DNA of 7,772 nt. Origin: Treponema sp. GTDB taxonomy: Bacteria > Spirochaetota > Spirochaetia > Treponematales > Breznakiellaceae. How positions within the stretch are numbered: the first letter of the stretch is position 1; every line of letters starts with the position of its first letter. Positions 3,284 through 7,772 of the stretch are shown piece after piece. The stretch covers positions 1-7,772 of the forward strand of contig JAITSE010000079.1 in the NCBI GenBank assembly GCA_031288005.1. The letters run 5' to 3'. The notes under the pieces were generated by a model, which did not search any database, was not told the origin of the DNA, and worked only from the letters and a program-made list of their open reading frames with translations. The translations under genes and the position numbers were made by a program.

Positions 3284-4644
3284 TTGACAAAAAACAAAGT
3301 AAAATAGTACATTTATATAGTGGACTTGTTCAACAACCTATTTTACTGAACCTTAATCAGGTTCGGGTTGCGGAAACGAAGTTTCCGACGAACAACTCTA
3401 GTGCAGGCGTCGCTGGAACCGTCAGAATGCAAAATAGGCAAAACCCATGACTATGATCGGCGTTTGAAAGAATACAATAATATGACCGGTAAATCCAAAG
3501 AAAATATTTACCAGTATTTATTTGCCAGTGAAGTAAAGGACATGACGGAAGTGGAAAATGACATAAATGAGAAATACAGCGCCCTCAGCGAAGAGAAAAG
3601 CAGGGAAATATATTTTTATAACGCTGAACTATTTAGACATTACATAGAATCTATACGAACCCATGAAATGTTTGTTAAAGAGATATTTATTCGTGCCGAA
3701 GAAAAGAAACAGATAAAAATAATTAAAAGAACAACGCCGGCACCGGAAGAACACGGGCTGACAAAAAAAGACCTGATGCAGAAGGCGCAAAAAGTTAAAA
3801 ATGATGAATTTTATACCCGGCTTGACGACATTGAAAAAGAGCTGTCCATGTATGACAGAACAGCATGGAAAGACAAAACCTTGTTCCACAACTGTGATGA
3901 TGCGGTTGATGATGACTGTAAAAACACATCGGCTTTCGCTCTGTGTTTTTTACAGAATTTTAAGGGCCTGGAATTAAAAAAAATAATATGCACCCATTAC
4001 AGCGGCCCGGTGGATTTATTTAATCAGGCGCAAAAGGGTATGTGTTTACTAAAGACGGTTTCAGAGAATTCAGGAAATTCCCCAAAAACTACACGGGCAG
4101 CTTTGACGATCCCCTGCCGCTGAAAATACTGAAAGAAGACGCGGATATAGTATGCACAAACCCGCCGTTCTCACGGGCGGCGGATTATTGGAAAATCGTA
4201 ATTGAAAGCGGAAAAAATTTTTTAATAATTTCTAACATAACAAATCCGATAGCGCCGGCGTTTATTTCTTATTTCAAAGATAACAAAGTATGGGCGGGAT
4301 ATAACCGTATAGATTATTTTTTAAATCCGAAAAAATAACTTGTAGAAGCGTCGGGACATTGGTACACAAATATTGCCATTAAAAACAGGCCAAAATACAA
4401 GCAGTTAAAAATAACGCCGTTAAAAGATATCCATGAAAAACATAAAAAATATGACGACTCTAAAAATTTAGTTGTGGATAGTTGTTATATTCCAGGCGGC
4501 TATAAAAAGCCTTTTGCGGTATCCGCCCTCCCGGTATTAAACGGCCTGCTGGAAAAGAGATATAAAATTATACAGGATACGCAGTATTTTCCGTACATAA
4601 ACGGAAAAAAATGCTTTGGCCTGGTTTTGGTACAGAAAATATAA
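3284..4644 (+). pseudogene. GIY-YIG (T5orf172-type) nuclease domain fused to EcoRI-type adenine DNA methyltransferase, inactivated
   Basis: The restored protein would be 426 aa. The start TTG 3284 follows AAGGAG. Residues 9-95 form a GIY-YIG-like domain: YIYIV, CKIGKT, DRRLKEY, Glu in MTEVEND, and EIYFYN. Residues about 133-426 resemble M.EcoRI: KNDEFYT (145-151), HNCDDA, then DIVCTNPPF with the catalytic NPPF (266-269), GKNFLIISN, and the terminal INGKKC region matching the M.EcoRI C-terminus. It would methylate adenine in DNA at an unknown site. Four lesions are seen: an in-frame TAG (3305-3307); an 81-bp insertion (element plus target duplication) after codon 13; a one-base deletion in the AAAAGGG run near 4032-4038, shifting to the frame of GTG 4042; and an in-frame TAA (4336-4338). 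Both stops could be CAG/CAA to TAG/TAA changes. The natural stop 4642-4644 abuts a second element. No restriction gene is adjacent. The nuclease domain may have filled that role (inference). Confidence 0.85.
3318..3403. mobile_element. MITE-like element B1 (3323-3398) with TAGTG target duplication
   Basis: A 76-bp element with 9-bp terminal inverted repeats GACTTGTTC (3323-3331) and GAACAACTC (3390-3398), one mismatch. It is flanked by exact 5-bp direct repeats TAGTG (3318-3322, 3399-3403). Internal hairpins are GAACCT/AGGTTC (3348-3364) and CGGAAAC GAA GTTTCCG (3371-3387). It encodes nothing. Deleting element plus one TAGTG restores the reading frame and the GIY-YIG motif, which is direct evidence of insertion. 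Confidence 0.85.
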
Positions 4645-4808
4645 TATGGTTGTTCGATAATCCGAACCCGAAGGAATCGATGCGACTGAAAGTCTACGGT
4701 TCCAGGGTTCAGTAAAATAGGTTTCGGAAACATCGGAAACATCGGAAACGCGGAAACATCGGAAACTTGTTTCCGCGTTTCCGATGTTTCCGCCGAACAA
4801 GTCCAATA
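4642..4808. mobile_element. MITE-like element B2 (4647-4803)
   Basis: A 157-bp relative of B1 in opposite orientation. Its ends are TGGTTGTTC (4647-4655) and GAACAAGTC (4795-4803), flanked by TAATA (4642-4646) and CAATA (4804-4808), a 4-of-5 target duplication that overlaps the TAA stop of the methyltransferase gene. It shares with B1 the stretch GGTTCAGTAAAATAGGTT (reverse-complemented in B1). Its first hairpin is enlarged (GAACCC 4664-4669 / GGGTTC 4705-4710, with inner GGAATCG/CGGTTCC-like pairing). Its second is greatly expanded (see 4725-4792). Confidence 0.75.
4725..4792. repeat. CGGAAAC tandem repeats forming a 24-bp perfect hairpin
   Basis: CGGAAAC occurs at 4725, 4734, 4743, 4751 and 4760, spaced 8-9 bp. 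Its complement GTTTCCG occurs at 4769, 4777 and 4786. Positions 4734-4757 and 4769-4792 are perfect inverted repeats of 24 bp with an 11-nt loop. B1 has only a single CGGAAAC/GTTTCCG pair, so this looks like unit amplification. Lying between convergent genes, it could also act as a transcription barrier. Confidence 0.85.
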
Positions 4809-7690: not shown

Positions 7691-7692
7691 TA

Positions 7693-7772
7693 GAGTTGTT
7701 CGATAACTTCAGGTATCGAACAAATTCCTTATAAAAATCGGCAAAATACGTAGTATTTTGCGAGACTTGTTC
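7693..7772. mobile_element. MITE-like element B3, partial (continues past the window)
   Basis: It begins GAGTTGTTC (7693-7701) and shares 12 bases, TAGAGTTGTTCG (7691-7702), with the reverse complement of the B1 end at 3389-3400. Hairpins are TTGTTCGATA/TATCGAACAA (7696-7705/7714-7723) and GCAAAATAC GTA GTATTTTGC (7741-7761). GACTTGTTC, identical to the B1 left end, closes the window (7764-7772). The flank TATTA (7688-7692) is the predicted target duplication. The second copy would lie outside. Confidence 0.6.

Follow-up and report, generated by a model that had tools for sequence, protein, structure and literature searches.

A MITE copy, very probably moved in trans by an IS5-family transposase, interrupts a decaying GIY-YIG/methyltransferase gene in Treponema sp.

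Two reading frames in the window, that is, in the whole stretch of 7,772 nucleotides analysed here, look like separated parts of one gene, and the locus raises the question of what lies between them and how it came to be there. The frame opened by TTG 3284 reads LTKNKVK*YIYIV and then, inside the intervening DNA, DLFNNLFY*. From GTG 3401 the window reads VQASLEPSECKIGKT, in a frame that continues to about 4030. The pentamer TAGTG stands at 3318-3322 and again at 3399-3403, a spacing of 81 bp. This letter-level description of the frames and of the two TAGTG copies, given in the first-pass annotation, was confirmed on the window sequence. The annotation had also taken the repeat as internal proof of an insertion, a target duplication and a precise original site. 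An identical 5-mer recurs at +81 at 17 positions across the window, so the TAGTG repeat alone is weak evidence; it becomes strong evidence because homologues read uninterrupted through the site.

To collect these homologues, the open stretch 3401-4036 was used as the protein query; 349 proteins reached E 1e-5 or better, and 120 were listed. Among the listed relatives, a CKIG-type motif falls in the first 80 residues of 86, and in 84 of these a YIYIVQ-like string immediately precedes it (for example, P0002 reads ...KQYIYIVQASLEPSKCKIGKT). The two exceptions are the window's own database entry, P0001, and the truncated P0075. Among the best protein relatives with names are those of Spirochaetaceae, Treponema and Ignavibacteria MAGs and of a Treponema endosymbiont of Eucomonympha; the window itself probably comes from a spirochaete of the termite gut. 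In relatives of the gene K-Q-YIYIVQASLEPSKCKIGKT is unbroken, and the window string is broken exactly at the 81-bp unit. At the DNA level the motif is uninterrupted in 69 of 79 related bacterial loci, the other 10 being unmatched by the search expression. Several loci come close to the window flanks, among them L006 with TACATTTATATAGTTCAGGCGTCG; its TACATTTATATAGTTCAGGCG stands against the window's flanks TACATTTATATAGT | GCAGGCG. The empty site predicted by the annotation, TATATAGTGCAGGCG, has near-matches in relatives, the nearest (L006, L005 and L017) being one or a few bases off, and is absent in its exact form from the 72 listed motif stretches; the empty site is thus demonstrated for relatives, not for the same species. 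The annotation had named two outcomes that would speak against it: orthologues without YIYIVQ ahead of KIGKT, or orthologues in which the element is normal coding sequence. This check left the insertion standing. Judged from these comparisons, the insertion in the window is real and precise, and its original site is evident from relatives. Besides the homologues, two further observations support the insertion, its target duplication and its original site: the element family occurs elsewhere with duplications, and complete insertion sequences share its ends.

The exact limits of the element follow from its other copies. We assembled 38 distinct pairs of ends, GACTTGTTC...GAACAACTC, the window's included, pairing a left end with the first right end to follow within 450 bases and excluding duplicates and pairs with flanks shorter than 10 bases. 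The base preceding GACTTGTTC is G in 32 pairs, A in 5 and T in 1, and the base following GAACAACTC is T in all 38. Because these outer bases are near-constant, they belong to the element, and the 5-bp TAGTG duplication was rejected in favor of one of 3 bp. The annotation was therefore right that an element and a target duplication exist, and wrong in their sizes: the element is 78 bp rather than 76, and the duplication is AGT. MITE copy A occupies 3322..3399 on the forward strand, has the ends GGACTTGTTC and GAACAACTCT, and lies within the GIY-YIG/methyltransferase gene; flank comparison places the left copy of AGT at 3319..3321 and the right copy at 3400..3402.

Matching 3-bp flanks, mostly ANT, were found in 34 of the 38 pairs, the window's among them. 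The flanks match in 27 of 27 pairs whose left triplet is ATT and in 7 of the remaining 11. When right flanks were shuffled (2000 shuffles), the mean was 22.7 matches and the maximum 30 of 38, so the agreement comes largely, though not entirely, from the preference for ATT. Two of the four pairs without exact duplication (L110, L170) resemble mispaired neighbouring ends. A looser list (141 pairs, 53 triplet matches) was not relied on, since it mixes pairings within palindromes with real ends. As delimited by flank and end alignment, the element is GGACTTGTTC...GAACAACTCT with a 3-bp duplication, mostly ANT, and in the window it is 3322-3399 with AGT.

Copy A has the features of a MITE. It is short, its terminal inverted repeats (GGACTTGTTC and AGAGTTGTTC) agree at 8 of 10 positions, its family has a target duplication of fixed length, and copies are many, with three in the window. 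It contains no transposase gene, and at 78 bp is too short to encode one. L246, L249 and L257 carry a plain form of 60 bp between two ATT triplets; copy A corresponds to this form plus 18 bases that form a small hairpin. The end pattern GACTTGTTCRAYAACC is present in 101 of 195 spirochaete genomes (the family of G010), with 0 matches to the reversed control among the rows listed. When copy A itself was searched for in 12 genomes, its first 16 bases had exact matches in G010 and G007, and G007 also gave a 47-base match at 89%. An 18-base inner pattern, allowing up to 2 mismatches, was found in 38 of 195 genomes; the reversed control gave 13 matches, so only exact or near-exact matches to this pattern count. 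In one genome, G044 (L140-L159), the end pattern matches 362 times, and the usual copy in this genome has a length of about 108-110 bp and the appearance of three consecutive hairpins. Virus-borne copies were considered and rejected: viral contigs gave 0 stretches with the 18-base inner pattern and 26 with the end pattern, and no palindromic partner was seen in those 26 (70 bases each, inspected by eye).

The two other copies in the window lie on the reverse strand. MITE copy B (4646..4804, 159 bp) starts two bases past the last stop codon of the GIY-YIG/methyltransferase pseudogene and is flanked by AAT at 4643-4645 and 4805-4807; one of its arms contains a long GGAAAC-type hairpin, and one of its ends is degenerate. 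MITE copy C (7692..7772) has 81 bp present, ends at the window edge, and resembles the longer three-hairpin G044 form. Copies A and B both fold much better than their shuffled counterparts, with a z of -5.2 for copy A and of -8.1 for copy B. The GGAAAC-type hairpins of copies A and B sit in opposite arms, and the copy B stem is a perfect one of 25 bases. The idea that left-arm hairpins are common was rejected: a plain 3-base spacer is present in 93 of 99 left arms, and among the other 6 a long hairpin occurs only in the window's copy B (this set comprised arms flanked by AAT, ACT or ATT, excluding viral loci and AGT flanks, and thus copy A). A comparison of the window with Rfam gave no family at or above its gathering score. 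The first 720 positions of the window are densely filled with nested short palindromes and repeats (CTCCCACTTAAACCTAAGC..., GCAATCCGGCGGAGCCGGATTGC); CTYYCACTTAAACCTRAGC from this region, with one mismatch allowed, was found in 1 of the 195 related genomes. The neighbourhood gave no empty-locus comparison: the upstream lipoprotein has its nearest relatives in G071 and G067 (about 64% identity), on contigs of 4398 and 9618 bases with neither malQ nor the methyltransferase.

Autonomous partners with the same ends are present in related genomes. In G005, an 887-bp stretch between GACTTGTTCGAGAACCC and GGGTTGTCGAACAAGTC (L112) has ATT on both sides and holds two ORFs, which match HTH_Tnp_4 (PF13613) and DDE_Tnp_4 (PF13359) above cut-off; the NCBIfam IS5 models scored below cut-off for each ORF alone. 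Relatives of the first ORF were found in 40 of the 195 genomes. By the search expression, both ends lie 600-1500 bases apart at 7 of the 30 loci given. Exact duplications flank four of the seven, namely L200 (the same place as L112), L201, L208 and L221, with ATT, ATT, AAT and ATT, respectively, and are missing at L203, L206 and L217. The complete elements with an IS5-type transposase and exact duplications measure 871-889 bp. The end pattern is found in 30 of 40 genomes with the transposase versus 71 of 155 without (Fisher p 0.0012, from a table counted by hand and a test that treats genomes irrespective of shared ancestry); the latter 71 genomes are without a transposase match at E 1e-10.

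ANT is the target triplet of the ISL2 group. Together with element size and ORF layout, this triplet would place the partner element in the ISL2 group of the IS5 family. The available part of one survey describes the ISL2-group elements ISCaa2 and ISCaa3 of Amoebophilus asiaticus as 914-916 bp long with two ORFs, and gives one ORF as usual for the group (PMC3196728). The spirochaete partner is similar in size, and its two ORFs are likewise jointly like one IS5 transposase; it differs in having 3-bp duplications, whereas no direct repeats are listed for ISCaa2 and ISCaa3 in that part of PMC3196728. Copy A and its relatives also share with IS5-derived bacterial MITEs their shortness, the lack of an ORF of their own, inverted repeats, a 3-bp duplication, many copies, and the existence in related genomes of complete elements that share their ends; the window copies differ by extra hairpins within their arms. 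The open-access literature searched yielded no paper on MITEs or insertion sequences of termite-gut treponemes or spirochaetes, none on IS5-family non-autonomous MITEs, none describing this family with these ends, and none that names the IS5 subgroups together.

The interrupted gene extends over 3284..4644 on the forward strand and, by Pfam matches, homologues and lesions, is a pseudogene that joins a GIY-YIG-like domain (T5orf172/MUG113) to an EcoRI-type adenine methyltransferase. Pfam recognizes T5orf172 and MUG113 (PF10544, PF13455) and EcoRI_methylase (PF13651) at 3368-4123, so that both domains of the fusion are present in one gene, as they are in L005. EcoRI_methylase is matched a second time at 4042-4338; no Pfam family matches the third piece, 4339-4644, yet this piece aligns to the same relatives. 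The 81 bp add 27 codons, and copy A supplies an in-frame TGA. Removing them, as the annotation proposed, gives the right original site, but does not reopen the gene start, where TAG 3305-3307 remains; relatives mostly have Gln, and some Glu, at this position. Further lesions are a frame break near 4030 and TAA 4336-4338, and there is consequently no open reading frame through the gene. The three neighbouring genes in the window are open, and several lesions occur in this gene alone. In a 27-row alignment the window gene differs at 11 of 82 near-invariant positions, the next highest row at 5 of 82, and such drift has the look of a gene freed from selection. With these further lesions and this relaxed sequence, the gene is today a decaying pseudogene, and its enzyme activity has presumably been lost.

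We therefore consider it very probable that copy A is a MITE that an IS5-family transposase mobilized in trans and that inserted at AGT, in a gene that is now a pseudogene. An IS5-family transposase would have acted on the ends GACTTGTTC...GAACAAGTC and so have moved the gene-less MITE; the element would have landed at an AGT triplet in the Y-I-V-Q codons of the GIY-YIG/EcoRI-type methyltransferase gene, duplicating AGT, and translation from the old start would then end at the in-frame TGA. That a transposase of this type was the mover is suggested by the shared ends of the complete elements. Those elements, with their own 3-bp duplications, also speak against another reading, in which copy A belongs with palindromic repeats such as REP/BIME or the Rickettsia RPE and no IS5-type transposase took part in its spread. 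The copies are indeed short, palindromic and numerous, and the number of bases inserted is divisible by three. For other common copies, however, the added length is not, and copy A introduces an in-frame stop; we regard this reading as highly improbable.

An assembly chimera, with a repeat misjoined into an intact gene, is marginally less probable again. Copy C does lie at the very end of the contig, as where a repeat breaks an assembly. A misjoin would not produce the AGT duplication of copy A, however, and the same gene continues on both of its flanks; nor would one expect open neighbours beside a single gene with several lesions and 11 odd residues at the 82 positions. The least probable reading is that the insert is a leader or attenuator hairpin outside the coding region, with a working protein starting at GTG 3401 or TTG 3368. 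A 251-aa ORF does begin at TTG 3368 inside the element, the database entry P0001 (240 aa) begins with the GTG 3401 codon, and copy A folds well. Against a working protein, a product begun at GTG 3401 would lack the first GIY-YIG strand, which precedes CKIG in nearly all the listed motif-bearing relatives; the frame is also broken near 4030 and at 4336, and drift has altered conserved residues.

The gene hit by the MITE insertion is open in other spirochaetes. Matches to P0004 were found in 16 of the 195 spirochaete genomes, and 12 of 13 places with more than 300 residues have no internal stop. Open single-chain fusions of about 425-447 aa are seen at L005:7965-9251, L018:7905-9248, L012 and L021. 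In L005, PF13651, T5orf172 and MUG113 are all above cut-off; it shares PF13651 with EcoRI-type adenine methyltransferases and the GIY-YIG-like domain with GIY-YIG restriction enzymes, such as Eco29kI, Cfr42I and Hpy188I (available part of PMC4081073). It differs from both in having the two domains in one chain of about 430 aa. PADLOC labels the fused chain MTase_II, with a weak PDC-S57. No restriction-enzyme family was recognized in nine neighbouring proteins at four loci, one of these proteins having no Pfam match. A search of solved-structure sequences with L005 gave no match at E 0.01, and no paper in the open-access literature searched names both Pfam families of the fusion together. The fused chain is possibly a one-chain restriction-modification gene distributed across many phyla.

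A 109-bp member of the family (L075:8620-8728) interrupts a homologous gene in G010 (L075) at its V-D-L-F codons; it is flanked by ATT on both sides, at a site that differs from the window's. It is conceivable, but improbable, that these two cases, the window and L075, stand for a recurrent silencing of a solitary GIY-YIG/adenine-methyltransferase gene by this MITE family in gut spirochaetes. Such insertions would then be a regular means for hosts to turn off, or to switch, a single-chain restriction-modification gene, and in the window's host the copies would also grow by gaining GGAAAC-type arm hairpins.

For annotation, the locus carries a warning: the gene call from GTG 3401 covers only a pseudogene fragment. 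Since open copies of the fused nuclease-methyltransferase gene occur elsewhere, with no partner recognized at four loci, this gene may merit its own study. The window offers a clean case, at the sequence level, of a MITE insertion whose original site can be seen in relatives. The insertion process is ordinary, and the spirochaete MITE family is new, of a known kind; the locus defines this group of short spirochaete elements, together with their 3-bp target and a likely transposase.
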